DNA from: Actinomycetes bacterium
GTDB lineage: Bacteria; Actinomycetota; Acidimicrobiia; Acidimicrobiales; Ilumatobacteraceae
Length of the DNA: 62,411 nucleotides
Reading direction: 5' to 3'
Assembly: GCA_025359865.1 (NCBI GenBank)
Contig: JANYDH010000197.1
Location: forward strand, 1 to 62,411
How positions within the stretch are numbered: position 1 is the stretch's first letter; each line of letters opens with the position of its first letter. Below are positions 1-59,232 of this stretch, piece after piece. The notes beneath the pieces are model-generated. The model saw only the letters and a program-made list of their open reading frames with translations, searched no databases and was not told the origin of the DNA. The position numbers were made by a program, and so were the translations under genes.

Positions 1-53
1 GTGAAGGTGGCCGTACCGTTGGCGCCGGCCGCGTCACCAAGATCATCAAGTGA
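1..53 (+). CDS. tuf: Elongation factor Tu, C-terminal end only
   Basis: Only the last 16 codons and the TGA stop are in the window. Read from base 3 the peptide is [16 protein letters not shown], the conserved final strand of EF-Tu, the GTPase that carries aminoacyl-tRNA to the ribosome. The rest of the gene lies to the left. rpsJ follows after 16 bases, so the two are probably co-transcribed as the tail of a str-type operon. The identification is firm because this C-terminus is nearly invariant in the family. Confidence 0.9.
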
Positions 54-69
54 CCGGACGGAACTGAAC

Positions 70-387
70 ATGGCACAGAGCAGCATTCGCATCCGCCTCA
101 AGGCATTCGATCACGAGATCATCGACCAGTCGACTCGCAAGATCGTCGAGACGGTGACCCGTACCAACGCAACCATCCGTGGTCCCATCCCGTTGCCGAC
201 CGACAAGCACCGCTACACGGTCATCCGCGGACCGCACATCGACAAGGATTCACGTGAGCACTTCGAGATGCGTGTCCACAAGCGTCTGATCGACATCATT
301 GATCCCAACGCGAAGACCATCGACAGCTTGCAGCGCATTGAGTTGCCGGCGGGTGTCGACATCGAAATCAAGATCCAGTCCAGCTGA
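70..387 (+). CDS. rpsJ: 30S ribosomal protein S10
   Basis: S10 (105 aa) sits in the head of the small subunit and doubles as NusE, the link between RNA polymerase antitermination factors and the ribosome. The protein opens [19 protein letters not shown] and has the typical IRGPIPLPT loop and a normal length. The ATG at 70 is preferred over an in-frame GTG at base 1, which lies inside tuf. It follows tuf directly and is followed by a strong hairpin. It is cut off from the rest of the S10 cluster (rplC) by 4.6 kb of unrelated genes, so it probably belongs to the tuf transcript. Confidence 0.97.
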
Positions 388-411
388 GCTCAGCCGGAGA
401 AATTGGCTAGG

Positions 412-474
412 AAGTCCGACCGTTGGCGTTTGGTTGCTGCATACAGCATCTGAACGCCAAAGGTCGGACTTTTC
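412..474 (+). terminator. Nested hairpin after rpsJ
   Basis: A 19-base arm starting AAGTCCGACC (412-430) pairs with 453-471 with one mismatch. The loop between them contains a second small stem (TGCTG with CAGCA). The right arm runs into a short T run at 471-473. It lies 24 bases after the rpsJ stop and upstream of the protease gene, so it probably ends the tuf-rpsJ transcript. Confidence 0.75.
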
Positions 475-540
475 CGGTAGACAAGAGGGATCGACGACGA
501 CGACGCTTTCCCGCTCGAACCCGCACCGCTTGCGCTGCCA

Positions 541-1731
541 GTGTTCCCCCCGCCGCGGGGTGCGAGTGCGAACGAACTGACGTTGCTGGAGTTCGACCCC
601 GACGAATTCTCCGCCGTTGACGTAGTGCCCGAGAAACAGCGCGAGCGTGGCCGTCGACCGGGTCGTGCGTGGGTCTTGCTCACCGTGTGCGCGGCATGGC
701 TGAGCGGCATGGGCGGTGCCTTCGTGGGTACCTATCTTGCCAATCGGCGTGACGACCCACCACACCGCCCATCGTCGCTCGGCGTCGTGGTGGCCCCGCC
801 CCGCGACCAGGAGTATGGGCCCATCGACGTCGCCTCGGTCAACGCGGTGGTCGGCGCAAGCGTTGTGGCGATCCAACGCGTGATCGCCGACGGTCCGCTT
901 CAAGGCGAGTCGTTCGGAACCGGCGTGATCATCACCACCGATGGCGAGATCCTGACCAACGCACACGTCGTCGCCGACGCCAAGACAGTCAATGTGCGTC
1001 TTGCCGGCGAGACCGAGCCACGTCTCGGCGCCGTCGTTGCGCGCGACGCGGCCAACGATCTTGCGCTCATCCGTGTCGATGCAGTTGGTCTCACTGCGGC
1101 CACGTTCGCCGCGGTCGGCAGCGTGCGAATCGGCGACGAAGTGGTGGCCATCGGGTACGCCCTCGATCTTGATGGCGACCCATCGGTCACTCGTGGCATC
1201 GTGTCCGCACTCGACCGCACGCTGAACACCGACGGCGGGGCGTTGAATGGGATGGTCCAGACCGACGCGGCTATCTCGTCCGGCAACTCCGGCGGCCCGC
1301 TCGTCAACGCTGCAGGTGAGGTGCTGGGTATCAACACCGCCGTCGCTACCAGCAGCTCCGACACGGCGGCAAACAACGTCGGCTTTGCCATCTCGGTCGA
1401 GCGGCTGCTCGCGGAGATCGACCGACTGCGTAGCTCATCCGACGGTGCACCGCTCGTCGAGGGATACCTCGGGGTCTCGCTCGATCAACGTCACGACGGC
1501 GGCAGCGGTGCGCTCGTCACCGGGGTCGAAACGGGTTCGCCGGCCGACATGGCCGGGTTGAAGACCGACGACGTTGTGACGGCAGTAGACGGTGAGATCA
1601 TCAACGGCCCGTCCGATCTGGTGGCCACCATTCGCAATGTCGCCCCAGGAACCACCATCAAGCTCACTGTGGTGCGTGATCGCGACCGGAAGGAACTCGA
1701 CGCCACCCTGGTCGAGCGAGCAAAGACCTGA
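541..1731 (+). CDS. HtrA/DegP-type membrane-anchored serine protease
   Basis: Trypsin-like protease with a C-terminal PDZ domain, expected to degrade or sense misfolded proteins outside the membrane. A cytoplasmic N-terminus is followed by one membrane segment (about residues 44-67), then the protease domain with H142 (TNAHVV), D173 (NDLAL) and S250 (SGNSGGP), and a PDZ domain at about 305-390. All three catalytic residues are present. The start is uncertain: GTG 541 is the first standard start after an in-frame stop at 478-480, but it has no clear ribosome-binding site and the acidic frame upstream looks coding-like. The gene ends 9 bases before a convergent VOC gene. Confidence 0.88.
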   Translation: MFPPPRGASANELTLLEFDPDEFSAVDVVPEKQRERGRRPGRAWVLLTVCAAWLSGMGGAFVGTYLANRRDDPPHRPSSLGVVVAPPRDQEYGPIDVASVNAVVGASVVAIQRVIADGPLQGESFGTGVIITTDGEILTNAHVVADAKTVNVRLAGETEPRLGAVVARDAANDLALIRVDAVGLTAATFAAVGSVRIGDEVVAIGYALDLDGDPSVTRGIVSALDRTLNTDGGALNGMVQTDAAISSGNSGGPLVNAAGEVLGINTAVATSSSDTAANNVGFAISVERLLAEIDRLRSSSDGAPLVEGYLGVSLDQRHDGGSGALVTGVETGSPADMAGLKTDDVVTAVDGEIINGPSDLVATIRNVAPGTTIKLTVVRDRDRKELDATLVERAKT

Positions 1732-48753: not shown

Positions 48754-49854
48754 ATGCCGACAAAGCGCATTCTCATCTGTTCGACCCCCGTTGGACCGCT
48801 CGGCAGTGGTGTCGGCGGGGGCGTTGAACTAACACTGCATAGCTTGGTGTTGGGCTTGTCAGGTCGAGGTCATCATGTTGAAGTCGTGGCACCGGAGGGG
48901 TCGCTGCACGTCGGCGCCAGAGTGCATCAGATTCCGGGGAGCTATCAGGTGAGCAGCCAGACCGAGTCGCGCGATGCGGCCATCGCGATGCCCCCGTCGC
49001 CTGTGCTCGGAGCAATGTGGGAATGGGTTCGGCTACACCAACAGCACTACGACATCGTGCTCAACCTGGCATACGACTGGCTCCCATGGTTCCTCACACC
49101 GTTCCTGCAGGTTCCGGTGGCGCATCTGGTGTCGATGGCTTCCGTCAATGACGCCATGGACGTCGCTCTCACCGAGTTGGTGGTCGCCCGTCCTGGATCG
49201 GTGGCGGTGCATAGTTTCGCCCAGGCCGAAACCTTCCCGGCCGTCACGGAGCGCCTTCGCGTGCTCGGCAACGGTATTGCGGTCGAGCGATACGACCTGC
49301 ACGCCACCGCTGACGAACCGCGCACGCTTGGGTTCATCGGCAGGATCTCACCCGAGAAAGGCATCGACGACGTGTTTGCCGTTGCTGCGGCGACCGGCCT
49401 GACGGTGAAGGCATGGGGACTCATGCAGCACCCGTCATGTTGGCAGGCGGCGCAGGCGGCCTTCCCGACAGCAAGCGTTTCGTATGAAGGGTTCTTGCCG
49501 ACCGATGAGTTGCAGTTCGCGATCGGCGGCTGTGCCGCGGTGCTGATGACGCCGAAGTGGGTCGAGGCCTTCGGCAACGTCGCGATCGAGGCGATGGCTT
49601 GTGGCGTCCCCGTGATTGCCTATCGCCGCGGTGGCCCGGCCGAGATCGTGATCGACGGCGAGACCGGGTTTTTGGTCGAGCCCGATGATGTCGCAGGACT
49701 GGTCGACGCAGTCCGTCGACTTTCCGAGATCGATCGCGCCGTTTGCCGCCAACAGGTGGTCGAGCGATACTCGACCGACGCCATGGCCATGCGCGTCGAT
49801 GCCTGGTTCGACGACCTGATTCGGTCCAATCGGCGCGCGGACGCGAGTTCCTGA
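48754..49854 (+). CDS. Glycosyltransferase family 4 protein
   Basis: A 366-residue GT-B enzyme. The N-terminal STPVGPLGSGVGGGVELTLHSL resembles the nucleotide-sugar glycosyltransferases annotated as tetrahydrobiopterin glucosyltransferase in cyanobacteria. The C-terminal domain has LGFIGRISPEKGIDDVF, TPKWVEAFGNVAIEAMACGVPVIAYRRGGPAEIV and ETGFLVEPDD with the EX7E-type donor site. Retaining transfer of a sugar to an unknown acceptor is expected. It is lodged between truA and rplM, where most relatives have neither. The acceptor is not determined. Confidence 0.85.
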   Translation: MPTKRILICSTPVGPLGSGVGGGVELTLHSLVLGLSGRGHHVEVVAPEGSLHVGARVHQIPGSYQVSSQTESRDAAIAMPPSPVLGAMWEWVRLHQQHYDIVLNLAYDWLPWFLTPFLQVPVAHLVSMASVNDAMDVALTELVVARPGSVAVHSFAQAETFPAVTERLRVLGNGIAVERYDLHATADEPRTLGFIGRISPEKGIDDVFAVAAATGLTVKAWGLMQHPSCWQAAQAAFPTASVSYEGFLPTDELQFAIGGCAAVLMTPKWVEAFGNVAIEAMACGVPVIAYRRGGPAEIVIDGETGFLVEPDDVAGLVDAVRRLSEIDRAVCRQQVVERYSTDAMAMRVDAWFDDLIRSNRRADASS

Positions 49855-50861: not shown

Positions 50862-52172
50862 GTGCTGAGGTTCGGGACAGACGGCGTTCGCGGCGTCGCA
50901 TACACCGAGGTCACGACGGAGTACGTCGCGGCACTCGGACGTGCCGCCGCTCAGGTGCTCGGCGGTGGAAATTGGTTGGTTGGCCGTGACCCTCGTGAAT
51001 CAAGTTTCGACCTCGCCGGATCCCTTGCGTCGGGCCTGGTCGATGGCGGAGCCGACGTCACCCTGACCGACGTGCTCCCCACCCCAGCGGTTGCCTACTG
51101 GGCCGCTCGCCACGATCGCCCCGCTGCCATGGTCACGGCGTCACACAATCCCTACCATGACAATGGCGTCAAAATCTTCGGACCGGGTGGGGTCAAACTG
51201 AGTGATGAGGTCGAGAGGTCGATCGAGGCGGCCCTTGCGGCCTCGGTGAAACCCGACGAGGGCTGGTACAGCTACGAACACGCCACCGAACTGGTTGATG
51301 ACTACATCGACCATCTCACTGCGATGTTCGAGCCGGGTGCGCTCGGCGGGCTCCGGGTCGTGCTCGATTGCGCCAACGGTTCGATGTCCGAGATCGCCGA
51401 GCGACCGTTCCTAGCGTTGGGTGCAATGGTTTCAGTCATCCACGCCGCTCCCGACGGTCGCAACATCAACGATGCTTGTGGTGCCACGTCGCCAGGCTCG
51501 CTGTGCGCGGCCGTGATCGAACAGGAAGCGCATCTGGGGCTCGCTTTCGACGGCGACGGCGACCGAGTCATCGCGGTCGACGAGCACGGAGATGTGGTCG
51601 ACGGTGATCGCCTGATCGCGCTTGCCGCATTGCAGCTTCGCGACGAAGGTCGTCTCTACAACGACACCGTTGTCGTCACCGTGATGAGCAACCTCGGGTT
51701 TCGTCGGGCAATGCAAGCAGCTGGTATCAAGGTCATCGAAACAGCCGTAGGTGACCGCTATGTGCTCGAGGCACTCGATGCTGGGGGGTTCTCGGTGGGG
51801 GGCGAACAGAGTGGCCACATCATCTACCGCGATCTGGCCACTACCGGCGACGGGCTACTCGCGGGCCTGCGCCTTGCCGCCTCCCTGGTCCAACGGGCCA
51901 CGTCGTTGGCCGAACTGGCCGAAGCGGTGATGAACACGTTCCCACAGGTGTTGGTCAATGTGCGGGTAGCTGTTCGTCACCCTGGTATTGCGTCGGAACT
52001 GGCTGACGAGATTGCGTTGGCCGAGCTGGCCCTTGGTGGTGAGGGCCGAGTGCTCGTTCGAGCCAGTGGCACCGAGCCGTTGATCAGAGTGATGGTCGAA
52101 GCCGCCACCGAAGAACTTGCGCGGCGCACTGCGGCGTCGTTGGCAACGGTGGTGCTTGACCGTTTCGGCTGA
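50862..52172 (+). CDS. glmM: Phosphoglucosamine mutase
   Basis: GlmM (436 aa) converts glucosamine-6-phosphate to glucosamine-1-phosphate on the way to UDP-GlcNAc. The phosphoserine is S94 in TASHNPYHDNG, the metal loop is DGDGDR, the sugar loop GGEQSGHI and the phosphate loop RASGTEPLIRV. The protein starts at GTG (VLRFGTDGVRG), the usual family start. It lies just upstream of the glmS-like gene, giving two successive steps of the same pathway. Confidence 0.95.
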   Translation: MLRFGTDGVRGVAYTEVTTEYVAALGRAAAQVLGGGNWLVGRDPRESSFDLAGSLASGLVDGGADVTLTDVLPTPAVAYWAARHDRPAAMVTASHNPYHDNGVKIFGPGGVKLSDEVERSIEAALAASVKPDEGWYSYEHATELVDDYIDHLTAMFEPGALGGLRVVLDCANGSMSEIAERPFLALGAMVSVIHAAPDGRNINDACGATSPGSLCAAVIEQEAHLGLAFDGDGDRVIAVDEHGDVVDGDRLIALAALQLRDEGRLYNDTVVVTVMSNLGFRRAMQAAGIKVIETAVGDRYVLEALDAGGFSVGGEQSGHIIYRDLATTGDGLLAGLRLAASLVQRATSLAELAEAVMNTFPQVLVNVRVAVRHPGIASELADEIALAELALGGEGRVLVRASGTEPLIRVMVEAATEELARRTAASLATVVLDRFG

Positions 52173-52269: not shown

Positions 52270-55200
52270 ATGTGCGGCATCGTCTCGATCCTGGCTCGAC
52301 CATCTACCCGCGCCGTACCCGCGGCGGCAGAGCTGGTTGCGTTGCTCGATGCTGCTGTCGCAGCCGCCGATCTGGCGTCGGCTACCGCCCACGTCGCCGA
52401 GGTCGATCGGTTGTTGCACGGCACGCCTGGTGTCGCTGCATTGATCGGCCATTTCGAACTCGTCGCCGCGCTCAGTACTCGTCTCGACCTGCTCGACGCC
52501 AGAGCATCCGCCCGTGAGGCTGAACTCGAGGTAGCAGCCGACCTGGCTGTTGACGAACTCGAATCTGCTAATAGTGAACTCATTGCATTTCGCGACGCCA
52601 CATGGGCAGTACGTAACGACCGGTTCCGCACCGCAGCCGCAGTCGACTTGTTAGCCGGTCGACAGGCGGGGCCTGCGGCCATCGCTGCATATCTCGCCGT
52701 GCAACAGGCGCTGTCGGCGATCGACCGTATGGAAGTCCGCGGCCGCGACTCCGCCGGGTTGCACCTCTATGTGTGGCAGCACGGGCTGTCGCTGGGCGAT
52801 CCGTCGGTCGCTGCATCGTTGTCGGCGCGCACCGCCGATCCGCTTTTTCAGAACGGCTCGGTTCGTGTGGCCAACGAATGCTTCAGCTTCGTCTACAAGG
52901 CGGCGGCCGAGATCGGCGAACTCGGCGACAATACGGCGGCCTTGCGGCGCGGCATCCACGCCGACGATCTGCTTCGGCTTGCGTTGTCACAGCCGGACGC
53001 GCGCATCTCGGTGGTCGGCCACACCCGTTGGGCAAGCGTCGGAATCATCAGCGAGGCGAACTGCCACCCGATCAACAGCGAAGAAAGCGAGTTGATGGGC
53101 GGTGAACTTCAGCCCTACGTGGTTGCCGCGTTGAACGGCGATGTCGACAATCACGCCGACATCAAGGCAGGGTTCGGGCTGCGCATCGCAGGCCCAATCA
53201 CCACCGATGCCAAGATAATTCCCGCTGCCACTGCTCGCCACGCGGCCAACACCGGTGGCGATCTGGTTGAGGCGTTTCGTCGCAGTGTTGCCAGCTTCGA
53301 CGGCAGCGTGGCCATCGCCGCCTCGGGTGCCGCACATCCCGATCAGGTCTACCTTGCGCTGCGTGGAAGTGGGCAGGGCATCTACATCGGTCTCGCGCAA
53401 GACATGTTCATCGTGGCCAGCGAACCGTACGGGATGGTCGAAGAGACCATGCGCTACGTGCGCGTCGACGGCGAAACGCCCGCACGACCTGGCGAACCGC
53501 AAAGCCGCGGTCAGGTGTATGTGCTCGATGCCGCGCATGCGGGCGACTTGCAGGGCATGCGCCGGATGGCCTACGACGGAACACCGCTGCCGCTGTCTGA
53601 CGCCGACGTGGCGATTGCGCAGGTCACCACCCGCGACATCGACCGCGGCGATGCACCGCACTTCTTGCTGAAGGAGATCACCGAAGCGCCGGAAAGCCTG
53701 CGCAAGACCCTGCGTGGCAAGATCGTCGAACACGAGGGATTGCTGCGGGCAGTGGTTGGCGATCGCGCCCTGCCAGCGGCTGTGATCGCTCGCTTGGGCC
53801 GCGGAGAGCTGCGCAAGATCCGCGTGATCGGTCAGGGAACTGCCGCGGTGGCCGGACGGAGCGCTGCGGCCGTGCTCGATGAGCTCGCAGACGGCGAGCT
53901 CGATGTCGAATCCATCACTGCGACCGAGTTGAGCGGGTTCCACATGCGTCTCGACATGTCTGACACGCTCGTCATCGCCGTCAGCCAAAGCGGGACCACG
54001 ACCGACACCAATCGCACGGTCGATCTGGTGCGTGCCCGTGGGGCCACCGTGTTGGCCATCGTCAACCGGCGCAACAGCGATCTCACCGACAAGTCCGATG
54101 GTGTGTTCTACACTAGCGATGGCCGCGATGTGGAGATGAGCGTGGCGTCGACGAAGGCGTTCTATGCACAAGTTGCTGCTGGAACGTTGCTGGCGTGCGC
54201 CATCACTGATGCGCTTGGTGTTGGCACTCCGAAACGGCGTCACGAGGTGCTCTCGTCGCTACGCGAGCTACCCGCCGCGCTACGCGAGGTGTTGACCCGT
54301 CGCCCCGAGGTTGCCCTGGCCGCGCAACGGTTTGCCCCATCAAAGCGGTACTGGGCCGTGGTCGGCAGCGGCCCGAACACGATTGCGGCCAACGAGGTAC
54401 GGATCAAGCTCAGCGAGTTGTGTTACAAGTCGATCGCCTGCGACGTCACCGAAGACAAGAAGCACATCGATCTCTCCAGTGAGCCACTGATTCTGGTCTG
54501 CGCCGCCGGACTAGTCGGTGGCACCGCCGACGACGTGGCCAAGGAGGTAGCGATCTACAAGGCGCACAAGGCCACTCCGATTGTGATTGCCACCGAGGGC
54601 GATGAACGGTTCGCAGCTGCGTCTGCAGTCCTCAGTGTCCCGGCCGTCGACAAGGCGCTCGGGTTCGTGCTTTCGGCGATGGTCGGGCACCTGTGGGGCT
54701 ACGAGGCAGCGTTGGCGATTGACGGCTCGGCCCGCCCGCTGCGTGAAGCCCGCGATGTCATCGAGCGTGCGGTTGGGGTGACACCCGATGGCGAGCAGGT
54801 ACTGCGCCGGGTTCGCGTCGAGTTACCGCTGCTGGCCGACCGGTTCTTCGACACGCTTCACTCGGGTGGCTACGACGGTCACCTCGAGGCATCCACCGCA
54901 GTGCGGCTTGCGGCCATCTTGCGTGACGCGCTCAGCGAGCGCCCGCTCGAGGACTACCAGCGTGCAACGGGCAAGATCTCCACGCCGAGTGTGCTCATCG
55001 ACGACCTCACTGCTGCGCTCACTCGGGCGATCGAAGAGCTCACCCGGCCGGTCGATGCAATCAAGCATCAGGCAAAGACCGTTACCGTTGGCATCAGTCG
55101 TAATGACGAAGGTGTGCTCGACCGACCGCTCGTGCAGGCCTTGCTCGATGCCGGCGCCAGCCGCGACCGGCTCACGTATCGCACGCTCAAGATCGTCGCC

Positions 55201-55680
55201 GACCTCGACCCAGCGGTCGCCGCGGTGGTCGGGTACACCCGCTACGCCATCGACGGTGATCCCAACGGCGAGGCCGGAGACGGCACCATCACGGTGGTCG
55301 ACCGGGGCGGGCTTTCACGCGATGTGCCCAGTCGAGTCGACGTGAACAGCCAATTGGTGGGCACCAAGCGTCGCGTGGCCAGCGAGCGTGAAGTGCTGGT
55401 GGTGCGCGGTCGTTCCGATGGTCGCACCGTCATCTTGGTGCCCGAGGTAAAGGCCGGTGTGTGCACTGGCATCACGCTGTTGCACGTGCGGTTTCACGAC
55501 CATCTTCCGGTGGCAGCCATCCGTGGCGTGTTGCAGGGCTACGACCGGCGGTATGACCGCCTTGTCGACTGGGTGTCCGAGACCGAGGGCACATTCCGCA
55601 ACGACCGGCTTGCCGATCTGAGCGTGGCCGATCTGCTGATCAATCCGATTTCCGATGTAGCCGACCACTGGCAGGCATGA
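52270..55680 (+). CDS. Giant glucosamine-6-phosphate synthase-like protein (GATase II + two SIS domains)
   Basis: A 1136-residue relative of GlmS, which makes glucosamine-6-phosphate from fructose-6-phosphate and glutamine; GlmS is normally about 610 aa. ATG 52270 is chosen so that Cys2 (MCGIVS) is the amidotransferase nucleophile; a TTG 9 bases upstream would bury it. A helical insert of about 140-180 residues follows the first strand. The rest of the glutaminase (RDSAGLHL, GHTRWASVG at 250-258, LNGDVDN), SIS1 (SQSGTTTDT at 572, STKAF at 627) and SIS2 follow. About 320 extra residues after roughly residue 817 match nothing I know. Substrate may differ from GlmS. Confidence 0.85.
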   Translation: MCGIVSILARPSTRAVPAAAELVALLDAAVAAADLASATAHVAEVDRLLHGTPGVAALIGHFELVAALSTRLDLLDARASAREAELEVAADLAVDELESANSELIAFRDATWAVRNDRFRTAAAVDLLAGRQAGPAAIAAYLAVQQALSAIDRMEVRGRDSAGLHLYVWQHGLSLGDPSVAASLSARTADPLFQNGSVRVANECFSFVYKAAAEIGELGDNTAALRRGIHADDLLRLALSQPDARISVVGHTRWASVGIISEANCHPINSEESELMGGELQPYVVAALNGDVDNHADIKAGFGLRIAGPITTDAKIIPAATARHAANTGGDLVEAFRRSVASFDGSVAIAASGAAHPDQVYLALRGSGQGIYIGLAQDMFIVASEPYGMVEETMRYVRVDGETPARPGEPQSRGQVYVLDAAHAGDLQGMRRMAYDGTPLPLSDADVAIAQVTTRDIDRGDAPHFLLKEITEAPESLRKTLRGKIVEHEGLLRAVVGDRALPAAVIARLGRGELRKIRVIGQGTAAVAGRSAAAVLDELADGELDVESITATELSGFHMRLDMSDTLVIAVSQSGTTTDTNRTVDLVRARGATVLAIVNRRNSDLTDKSDGVFYTSDGRDVEMSVASTKAFYAQVAAGTLLACAITDALGVGTPKRRHEVLSSLRELPAALREVLTRRPEVALAAQRFAPSKRYWAVVGSGPNTIAANEVRIKLSELCYKSIACDVTEDKKHIDLSSEPLILVCAAGLVGGTADDVAKEVAIYKAHKATPIVIATEGDERFAAASAVLSVPAVDKALGFVLSAMVGHLWGYEAALAIDGSARPLREARDVIERAVGVTPDGEQVLRRVRVELPLLADRFFDTLHSGGYDGHLEASTAVRLAAILRDALSERPLEDYQRATGKISTPSVLIDDLTAALTRAIEELTRPVDAIKHQAKTVTVGISRNDEGVLDRPLVQALLDAGASRDRLTYRTLKIVADLDPAVAAVVGYTRYAIDGDPNGEAGDGTITVVDRGGLSRDVPSRVDVNSQLVGTKRRVASEREVLVVRGRSDGRTVILVPEVKAGVCTGITLLHVRFHDHLPVAAIRGVLQGYDRRYDRLVDWVSETEGTFRNDRLADLSVADLLINPISDVADHWQA

Positions 55681-56060
55681 CCGGCACCGCCGGGGTGAAG
55701 GGTATCGGTGTCGACGCGGTCGACATCGAGCGCTTTCGGCGCTCCTTGCTGCGGACCCCGTCGATGCGTGAGCGCCTGTTCACCGAAGTCGAATTGGCCT
55801 ATGTCGAGCCGAAGGCCGACCCGGTTCCGTCGTTGGCGGCCAGGTTCGCCGCTCGTGAGGCGGTCATGAAAGCAATGGGTGTCGGGCTAGGAGCGTTCGG
55901 CTTCCACGAGGTCTGGGTCAGTCGGGCTCAGAGCGGGGAACCCTCGCTCGTGGTCACTGGTTCAGCGTTGGTGCTGGCCGAACAGGCAGGCATCGAGCGG
56001 TGGCATCTCTCGATCACGCACACCGCGTTGGTGGCAATCGCCTACGTCGTCGCCACATGA
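55677..56060 (+). CDS. acpS: Holo-[acyl-carrier-protein] synthase
   Basis: AcpS (127 aa) transfers phosphopantetheine from CoA to acyl carrier protein. The metal site is formed by GIGVDAVDIERF (Asp) and RFAAREAVMKAMG (Glu); the ending HLSITHTALVAIAYVVA is typical. The start overlaps the glmS-like stop by 4 bases (ATGA), so translation is coupled. A hairpin follows 20 bases later. Confidence 0.94.
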   Translation: MTGTAGVKGIGVDAVDIERFRRSLLRTPSMRERLFTEVELAYVEPKADPVPSLAARFAAREAVMKAMGVGLGAFGFHEVWVSRAQSGEPSLVVTGSALVLAEQAGIERWHLSITHTALVAIAYVVAT

Positions 56061-58696: not shown

Positions 58697-59176
58697 ATGC
58701 TTCGGCTACGTTCCACCTCGCTCGAGTCAACGCACGCCATTGCGGCTGCTCTGGCGCCGCTTGTGCGTAGCGGTGACATGGTCGTGCTTGCGGGCGAGAT
58801 GGGTGCCGGAAAGACCGCGTTTGCGCAGGGTTTCGGCGCGGCGCTGGGTGTGACTGATCCGATCACTTCGCCCACCTTCAACCTGGTTCATAGCCACCCG
58901 GCCGGGCGGCTCACGTTGCACCATGTCGATCTGTACCGGTTGAGTACCCAGCACGAGGTGGCCGACCTGGCGTTGGACGAACTCGCTGATGCTGATGGCA
59001 TCGTGCTCATCGAGTGGGGCGATGTCGTTGCTTCGGGGCTCGGTGATCATCTCGTTGTCCGTCTCGATGTCGACCCCGACGACGATGCCGCCCGCAACGT
59101 TGTGGTCAATGGCGTCGGGCGGAGTTGGGCGCTGCGCTGGGAACGTGTCGAAGCGGTCATGGCGGCATACATATGA
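58697..59176 (+). CDS. tsaE: tRNA threonylcarbamoyladenosine biosynthesis ATPase TsaE
   Basis: TsaE (159 aa) is the ATPase that resets the TsaB-TsaD complex during t6A37 modification of tRNA. The P-loop is GEMGAGKT (33-40). SPTFNLVHSHPAG, HHVDLYRL and LIEWGD are standard. ATG 58697 is used; TATCAT lies ten bases upstream and may be a -10 for a nearly leaderless mRNA. The TGA stop is the start of a hexanucleotide repeat leading to tsaB. Confidence 0.93.
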   Translation: MLRLRSTSLESTHAIAAALAPLVRSGDMVVLAGEMGAGKTAFAQGFGAALGVTDPITSPTFNLVHSHPAGRLTLHHVDLYRLSTQHEVADLALDELADADGIVLIEWGDVVASGLGDHLVVRLDVDPDDDAARNVVVNGVGRSWALRWERVEAVMAAYI

Positions 59177-59232
59177 CAGTGACAGTGATAGTGACAGTGA
59201 CAGTGACAGTGACAGTGACAGTGACAGTGACA
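59175..59232 (+). repeat. Hexanucleotide microsatellite between tsaE and tsaB
   Basis: Nine units of GACAGT (one is GATAGT) plus a partial unit fill the whole gap from the tsaE stop to just before the tsaB start. In the tsaB frame the repeat would read Ser-Asp; in the ATG that overlaps the tsaE stop it reads Val-Thr and ends at a TGA overlapping the tsaB GTG. Copy-number change would alter the distance between the genes but no frame. Confidence 0.95.

Follow-up and report, generated by a model that had tools for sequence, protein, structure and literature searches.

A nearly double-sized variant form of the amidotransferase GlmS in actinobacteria

Introduction

GlmS catalyses the opening step towards the amino sugars of the cell wall, and it has been studied as a drug target. 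The Escherichia coli enzyme contains 609 amino acids (aa), and in canonical GlmS the catalytic C-terminal tail (C-tail) forms the end of the protein. The eukaryotic enzymes GFAT-1 and GFAT-2 share the same fold and represent a member of this kind that carries both an insertion and regulation. The available portions of the published descriptions report an internal loop of 46 residues in the human GFATs (Lys211–Val256 of hGFAT2) (PMC7948480, PMC7000685), name GFAT as the feedback-regulated member of the enzyme kind (PMC7000685), and list Arg343, Gly355, Thr447, Thr458, Gly461, and His463 of GFAT-1 as contacts of UDP-GlcNAc (PMC7000685). Those portions mention neither an insert after the first strand nor a further C-terminal domain (PMC7948480, PMC7000685), unlike the long form of GlmS described here.

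The gene of this long form lies in a window of 62,411 nucleotides, the whole stretch of DNA that was analysed. No description of a long GlmS was found among the matches listed in the open-licence literature on GlmS/GFAT and the large glutamate dehydrogenases (titles and starts of abstracts).

Results

Locus and architecture of the long GlmS

The host genome is a draft of 219 contigs (96.6% complete), in which the long GlmS gene stands between glmM and acpS (Table 1). This neighbourhood is conserved. Of 73 full-length long-form loci, 56 have sufficient flank to show the upstream side; glmM is the immediate neighbour there in 49 of these and lies somewhere upstream in 55. Downstream, acpS is the next gene in 65 of 70 loci. 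The proximity of glmM in most of the genomes examined is a feature shared with bacterial GlmS. Of 19 hand-picked canonical glmS loci from the class of the host, 14 have a same-strand glmM upstream and 15 a same-strand acpS downstream; the long and canonical genes thus usually share the glmM–acpS place. Neither a glmS ribozyme nor any other RNA element was matched in Rfam at gathering scores between positions 49000 and 57000.

Table 1 Features of the long GlmS locus, in window positions.
Feature	Position	Strand	Remarks
glmM	50862..52172	+	Directly 5' of the long GlmS gene; Pfam PGM_PMM I-IV; conserved neighbour
Long GlmS gene	52270..55680	+	1136 aa + stop; single unbroken ORF, ATG at 52270
Cys2 codon	52273..52275	+	N-terminal nucleophile after Met removal, E. 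coli Cys1; invariant in 74/74 long forms
Insert 1, residues 9-138	52294..52683	+	Helical (model), straight after strand 1; absent from E. coli GlmS
Remaining glutaminase (Ntn amidotransferase) domain, residues 139-448	52684..53613	+	Arg253-Trp254, Asn289-Gly290, Asp313
Insert 2a, residues 175-207	52792..52890	+	Just 5' of the conserved VYKAAAEIGELGDN motif
Insert 2b, residues 226-241	52945..52992	+	From alignment to E. coli GlmS
Two SIS domains (isomerase), residues 458-818	53641..54723	+	PF01380 and structural matches
Insert 3, residues 819-925	54724..55044	+	107 aa, helical; SIS2 on one side, C-tail on the other
Catalytic C-tail, residues 926-941	55045..55092	+	Lys936, E. coli Lys603
C-terminal domain, residues 942-1136	55093..55677	+	195 aa past the canonical C-terminus
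acpS	55677..56060	+	4-base overlap with the glmS end; PF01648; conserved neighbour

The long form shares with E. coli GlmS the glutaminase, the two SIS domains, a C-tail with the equivalent of Lys603, and nearly all catalytic positions that were checked. Domain matches and alignments bear out the amidotransferase and SIS signatures recognised in the initial annotation. The two proteins are 26% identical, and relative to E. coli GlmS the 1136-residue protein carries inserts of 130, 33, 16, and 107 aa, plus two of 9 and 12 aa, in addition to the extension beyond the canonical C-terminus. The first and longest of these follows the strand of Cys2; its position and helical character had been anticipated correctly, whereas its length of 130 aa is slightly below the 140-180 given there. 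Inserts 2a and 2b together add 49 aa. The SIS domains contribute Thr524, Ser572-Gln573-Ser574, Ser627, Lys713, Glu716, and His732. About 320 residues beyond SIS2 had been taken for one new domain. The count is close (318 residues, 819-1136), but the region consists of insert 3, the canonical C-tail, and the terminal domain of 195 aa. Neither insert 1 nor insert 3 matched a Pfam family, and an insert 3 profile run against the PDB returned only chance-level rows (best E 0.23).

The predicted model superposes on E. coli GlmS (1jxa; Z 42.0, 587 aligned, rmsd 4.7, model 1..940 on chain 1..608) and on GFAT-1 (6svq; Z 42.8, 593 aligned, rmsd 4.3). Taken separately, the glutaminase matches 1xff (Z 30.6, rmsd 1.8, 236 aligned, model range 1-452), and the SIS part matches 2zj3, 7dnr, and 1moq (Z 42.4, 41.6, and 40.0; 344-346 aligned). 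Lys936 sits in PVDAIKHQAKTVTVG, which aligned to canonical tails with the same result in two alignments. In canonical GlmS this tail ends the protein, whereas in the long form it is flanked by two added parts; its pLDDT is below 50, so the position between the added parts is not visible in the model.

Conservation of the active site and the added parts

The residue check used 28 E. coli GlmS positions; at 22 of them, every one of 74 long forms has the E. coli residue. These include, in the Ntn-glutaminase, the N-terminal Cys, Arg73, Trp74, Asn98-Gly99, and Asp123, and, in the isomerase half, Thr302, Ser347, Gln348, Ser349, Thr352, Ser401, Lys485, Glu488, His504, and Lys603 (E. coli numbering). 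Five positions are altered, namely Thr76 to Ser, His77 to Val/Ile, Ser303 to Ala, Ser604 to Thr, and Glu608 to Gly, and Ala400 is retained in 72 of the 74. Accordingly, the checked positions of the Fru-6-P site are retained apart from Ser303, Ser604, and the two exceptions at Ala400.

Mean top-residue frequency differs along the protein. It is highest in the C-tail (0.965, 74 sequences), followed by the SIS domains (0.74 and 0.79), the C-terminal domain (0.70), the glutaminase at residues 243-445 (0.69), and insert 3 (0.62), and it is lowest in insert 1 (0.50; residues 9-142, Cys=1 numbering). The C-terminal domain is therefore conserved to about the same degree as the catalytic parts; 39 of its 193 columns are invariant in 19 sequences. 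It comprises 188-201 residues after AKTVTVG in 24 long forms and 195 in the window protein, whereas all 18 canonical proteins of the class that were recovered from the 19 loci stop at the C-tail.

Distribution and exclusivity

The long GlmS is a conserved family. An uninterrupted full-length copy occurs in 73 of the best 80 loci from named genome records; these relatives are 56-73% identical to the window protein and 1109-1160 aa long counted from Cys2, and one of them lies on the complete chromosome of Aquihabitans sp. G128 (L110). In a hand-made list of 296 genomes of the host's class, largely drafts, 119 carry the long form and 159 a canonical glmS (a match over the TIGR01135 cut-off), 18 have neither and none has both; not one of the 119 long-form genomes has a match over that cut-off. 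In the host draft genome, the glmS model found no second, normal glmS of the kind that the initial annotation had proposed to look for, its other matches being one N-terminal amidotransferase-type protein and one SIS-only protein. Matches also occur in 317 plasmid records and 21 phage records, none of which reaches 80% query coverage at one place.

In the tree, 24 long forms fall into one clade (support 87), joined to canonical GlmS by a stem branch of 2.4 substitutions per site. A Halomarina plasmid copy is placed as sister of the clade (node support 100), a position that may reflect long-branch attraction. Given this stem, the placement of the long clade is not fixed by the tree.

Predicted fold of the C-terminal domain

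Among known structures, the C-terminal domain best matches the N-terminal PAS region of L-GDH180 (7jsr), a mycobacterial large glutamate dehydrogenase and hence a different enzyme from GlmS. The match (Z 8.9, 157 aligned, rmsd 4.4, 12% identity) extends over model residues 15-198 (chain 174-358) and takes in the final helices. Foldseek gave the same structure at E 1.7e-3 with a probability of 0.99, a query TM-score of only 0.42, and an rmsd of 8.5, and returned no match to the domain at E ≤0.001. The central part also resembles GAF, PAS, and dCache domains (Z 5.5 to 7.1, mostly model 6-138); these values are within the range reachable by chance arrangements, and the final helices are mostly uncovered. 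Among 74 C-terminal domains Pfam produced scattered weak matches, the best of them at E 0.002 to a domain of unknown function (8 members); the window protein had none. A profile of the domain found nothing in the PDB at E up to 1. The domain is thus weakly PAS/GAF-like in its predicted fold.

No homology of the domain to the L-GDH PAS region emerged when their profiles were compared (hhalign probability 0.2 to 0.7%, best E 0.079). The first comparison gave E 0.24 for the PAS region (14/18 sequences) and E 0.079 for the N-terminal segment (15/18 sequences). The enlarged one set 45/48 L-GDH rows against 93 C-terminal domains, made up of the 74 and of those from 19/20 divergent loci, and gave E 0.34 and 0.19 in local mode; at E 0.34, the value for L-GDH PAS, the query Neff was 2.7 and the template Neff 6.1, a shallow query that limits power. 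As all these comparisons are negative, we claim no more than a likeness of fold. In addition, L-GDH had no match in four long-form genomes (G017, G087, G080, and G062), and its presence is not tied to the long form.

Discussion

The long form excludes canonical glmS, usually occupies its place, and retains nearly all residues checked; it is therefore most likely the GlcN-6-P synthase of its hosts, despite scores below the curated cut-offs. The gene is thus probably the cell's only L-glutamine:fructose-6-phosphate amidotransferase, replacing canonical GlmS in much of the class, and we infer that it is catalytically active and essential. Several observations count against this assignment: the window protein reaches 208.5 bits with TIGR01135 and 226.9 bits with NF001484, where the cut-offs are 418.05 and 381, so that the curated GlmS models reject it; the stem to canonical GlmS is very long; His77 and Ser303 are altered; the C-tail is modelled at low pLDDT; and the exclusivity is drawn largely from draft genomes.

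Judging from the conserved residues and the fold, Cys2 would hydrolyse glutamine, the ammonia would move to the isomerase half, and Fru-6-P would be aminated there with Lys936 of the C-tail, as in E. coli GlmS. The most likely role of insert 1, insert 3, and the C-terminal domain is that of a shell for regulation and assembly. As the C-tail lies between two added parts, we propose that movement of the C-terminal domain would pass straight to the tail, the element that closes the sugar site and the ammonia channel. A new mode of regulation acting via the C-tail is plausible, since one added part adjoins the Cys2 strand, two flank the C-tail, and the last is weakly PAS/GAF-like.

How far the added parts go beyond structure can be read in two ways. 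They may be structural only, setting the oligomer or docking GlmM or another partner without sensing a metabolite, a serious possibility to which we give somewhat less than an even chance. The helical nature of inserts 1 and 3 and their low conservation, lowest in insert 1, as packing surfaces can have, are consistent with it, as are the adjoining glmM, the next gene of the pathway, and the modest fold match of the C-terminal domain. The invariant columns of that domain and its junction with the catalytic tail argue against it, as do the canonical GlmS proteins of the same class, which lack any added part; the added parts are therefore unnecessary for the basic reaction. Alternatively, and more tentatively, the long form could be a ligand-regulated bacterial GlmS, in which a PAS/GAF-like sensor on the C-tail would let a metabolite govern how the sugar site and the ammonia channel close, an arrangement resembling the regulatory segment of the large glutamate dehydrogenases. 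If so, the enzyme itself, and not a glmS RNA, would carry the control over entry into amino-sugar synthesis.

The initial annotation had suggested that the enzyme could serve a different sugar. The very long branch, the low scores against GlmS models, and the change of Ser303 to Ala in the sugar site would fit an enzyme that aminates another sugar phosphate, with GlcN-6-P coming from elsewhere. This is improbable: the long and canonical genes exclude each other and usually occupy the same place, the ten sugar-site and catalytic positions including Lys603 are retained in all 74 long forms, and the host genome yielded no other complete GlmS.

Still less probable is a feedback of the eukaryotic GFAT type, in which UDP-GlcNAc acts at the known GFAT-1 site. 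Structures of human GFAT-1 rank near the top of the structural matches, and GFAT is known as the feedback-regulated member (PMC7000685), but five of the six contacts are changed in the window protein (Arg343 to Lys, Thr447 to Val, Thr458 to Ser, Gly461 to Val, and His463 to Tyr, with Gly355 within an ambiguous stretch), as read by eye from the alignment of this protein alone with the chain numbering shifted by 6 for an internal tag. Misassembly or read-through of neighbouring ORFs, which the draft state of the host genome might have suggested, is refuted as the source of the extra length by the uninterrupted full-length relatives, one of them on a complete chromosome.

With the gene read as the hosts' GlcN-6-P synthase, many relatives of the host among the actinobacteria appear to build the first amino-sugar unit of the cell wall with a nearly double-sized GlmS, which in many members of the class replaces the canonical enzyme, usually at the same locus. 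Should catalysis and control be confirmed, the family offers a natural experiment on ways of regulating GlmS. Since the long form scores below the curated cut-offs, automatic annotation may list such organisms as being without glmS.

Architecture of the long GlmS

The gene under study encodes a long GlmS variant that is real and conserved, for which no earlier description was found in the literature searched. Its reading frame starts 97 bases after the end of glmM (52172), and its last 4 bases are shared with acpS. The product begins with Met-Cys-Gly-Ile, thus Cys becomes the N-terminal residue after Met removal. The Pfam match is limited to the SIS domains; the glutaminase signature is probably missed owing to its interruption by the inserts. 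The NCBIfam GlmS models cover residues 245–815 (Cys=1 numbering) at about half of their cut-offs (208.5/418.05 and 226.9/381 bits), and GlmS and GFAT sequences in the PDB match the protein with E down to 5e-26. The segments absent from canonical GlmS were located by alignment to E. coli K-12 GlmS and canonical GlmS from the same order.

Features of the long glmS gene, its product and neighboring sequence
Feature	Window position	Residues	Strand	Description
Long glmS ORF	52270–55680		+	ATG to stop, 1136 codons, uninterrupted
Insert 1		9–138		130 aa, helical
Insert 2a		175–207		33 aa
FVYKAAAEIGELGDN	52888–52932	207–221		Adjoins insert 2a
Further insert		226–241		16 aa
Two small loops		274–282, 402–413
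Insert 3		819–925		107 aa, helical
C-tail, PVDAIKHQAKTVTV		927–940		Canonical C-tail
C-terminal domain		942–1136		195 aa, past canonical end
Glycosyltransferase gene	48754–49854			Group 1, between truA and rplM
TGACAG array	59174–59232			9.8 copies, 96% matches, across tsaE end

The initial annotation read about 320 residues following the second SIS domain as a single new domain. The length holds (318 residues), while the single domain does not. Since PVDAIKHQAKTVTV corresponds to the canonical C-tail VDQPRNLAKSVTV, with Lys936 aligned to Lys603 in E. coli GlmS, this part divides into an insert, then the catalytic tail, then a domain extending past the usual C-terminus. Among 74 sequences, the C-tail is the most conserved part (mean top-residue frequency 0.965). 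Conservation of the C-terminal domain (0.70) is close to that of the main glutaminase region (0.69) and the SIS regions (0.74 and 0.79), and values are lower for insert 3 (0.62) and insert 1 (0.50). The segment FVYKAAAEIGELGDN is nearly invariant across the aligned long forms, and only a faint counterpart is seen in canonical GlmS.

Predicted structure

An AlphaFold2 model built from the protein and 73 relatives has a mean pLDDT of 88.5 and a pTM of 0.80, with the C-tail poorly modelled (pLDDT <50 at model residues 928–942). VIA-align superposes the full model on GFAT-1 (6svq; Z 42.8, 593 aligned) and on E. coli GlmS (1jxa; Z 42.0, 587 aligned), matching model residues 1–940 with chain residues 1–608 of the latter.

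The C-terminal domain modelled alone reaches a pLDDT of 92.5. Its top PDB match is the 180-kDa M. smegmatis glutamate dehydrogenase (7jsr) over chain residues 174–358 (Foldseek E 1.7e-3, probability 0.99, TM-score on query 0.42; VIA-align Z 8.9, 157 aligned, rmsd 4.4), and no PDB match was found by Foldseek at E ≤0.001. The matched region is presumably the PAS part of that enzyme. GAF, PAS and dCache domains rank next (Z ≤7.1), mostly inside residues 6–138 of the domain model. Profile–profile comparison by hhalign detected no sequence homology between the C-terminal domain and glutamate dehydrogenase (probability 0.2%, E 0.34), so the likeness may be one of fold only.

Catalytic residues and possible regulation

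As the active site we took 28 E. coli GlmS positions known from the GlmS literature. Of these, 22 show the E. coli residue in every one of the 74 long forms, including Cys1, Arg73, Asn98-Gly99, Asp123, Lys485, Glu488, His504 and Lys603, all of which are kept. Ala400 is kept in 72 of 74, and five positions are changed (Thr76 to Ser, His77 to Val/Ile, Ser303 to Ala, Ser604 to Thr, Glu608 to Gly). By the tests available, the chemistry is ordinary; the architecture and the replacement of the standard enzyme are unusual.

Published work on the canonical enzyme implicates its C-tail and Trp74 in closing off the ammonia channel (PMC7948480), and interference from N- or C-terminal tags is stated for human GFAT-1 (PMC7000685). 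A C-terminal His-tag is reported to have little or no effect on hGFAT2 (PMC7948480), so extending this end need not by itself abolish activity. With an added part on either side holding it in place, the C-tail could provide a direct lever for control. The UDP-GlcNAc site of GFAT-1 is mostly not conserved in the protein encoded in the window, so any feedback would need another site, which would most simply be the C-terminal domain. The main rival to such a regulatory role, that the added parts are purely structural, is a serious possibility, though we lean against it.

Distribution and phylogeny

Among 61 close genomes, 60 gave a match and one did not. The long form occurs in 53 (some in fragments; table read by eye), and seven instead contain a frame of 611–750 aa with a weaker match; the three of these that were aligned are canonical. 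Across an even draw of 296 Acidimicrobiia genomes, the long form (A2 profile, E ≤1e-60, hand-compiled count) was found in 119, canonical glmS (above the TIGR01135 cut-off, search E limit 1e-30) in 159, both in none and neither in 18. The top TIGR01135 match among long-form genomes (8.7e-76) is under the cut-off. In the last group of 18, five genomes show a partial or weaker match and 13 show nothing within the E limit of 1e-30. The two forms do not occur together within any family in these tables (read by eye), and no intermediate was met in the genomes compared. In the simplest account, the long GlmS would be its hosts' GlcN-6-P synthase.

Of 246 genomes drawn from the phylum, 20 have the C-terminal domain, seven of these lying outside the class. 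Eighteen matches sit in frames of 1121–1187 aa, and the other two (genomes G337 and G504) reach the contig end. Full reading of five of these seven genomes showed the same architecture (1118–1147 aa). The best 80 named long-form records bear titles of Acidimicrobiia relatives (Ilumatobacteraceae, Acidimicrobiales, Microthrix, Aquihabitans and others) or just Actinomycetota, Actinomycetes or bacterium, apart from a few titles that look mislabelled. Four loci titled Bifidobacterium breve, Acidobacteria or Thermoanaerobacterales (L063, L084, L088, L106) carry a long glmS with 61–68% identity (best segment) and are probably mislabelled metagenome bins. In a two-contig genome, the long glmS (L298, G046:C1:1179500-1183500) is interrupted near residue 735 and continues in a second, overlapping frame, the cause being either a genuine frameshift or an error in sequencing.

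In a tree on core columns, the 24 long forms constitute a single clade (support 87) separated from the 22 canonical sequences by a stem with a length of 2.4 substitutions per site. Distances average 0.97 within long forms, 1.85 within canonical forms and 4.70 between them. The long form could have originated either by rapid change in place or by replacement from elsewhere.

Genomic context

The comparison of long-form loci covered 73 full-length copies. Where at least 1.8 kb of upstream sequence was available (56 loci), glmM immediately precedes glmS on the same strand in 49 and lies somewhere upstream in 55. Where more than 0.8 kb of downstream sequence was available (70 loci), acpS is the next gene in 65. 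rplM, rpsI, nnrD, alr and tsaE also surround these loci. No Rfam elements were found near the long glmS. From the 159 genomes of the class with canonical glmS, 19 loci of 12–14 kb each were picked by hand; glmM precedes the gene on the same strand in 14, and acpS follows it on the same strand in 15, at a distance of some 3 kb in one of these. The host genome contains a glmU-type gene (337.7 bits, under the cut-off of 366.85).

Very small genomes within the class (family f43, 0.6–1.1 Mb) mostly have canonical glmS. The sole one inspected (locus L190) has the row truA-rplM-rpsI-glmM-glmS-alr-tsaE, in which no acpS or nnrD match was found. A glycosyltransferase gene similar to that in the window occurs in at least 7 of 56 related loci; short flanks at many of them make this a minimum. 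The TGACAG array falls inside a longer, tsaB-like ORF that has a TsaD-family domain, where it is read as an Asp-Ser run.
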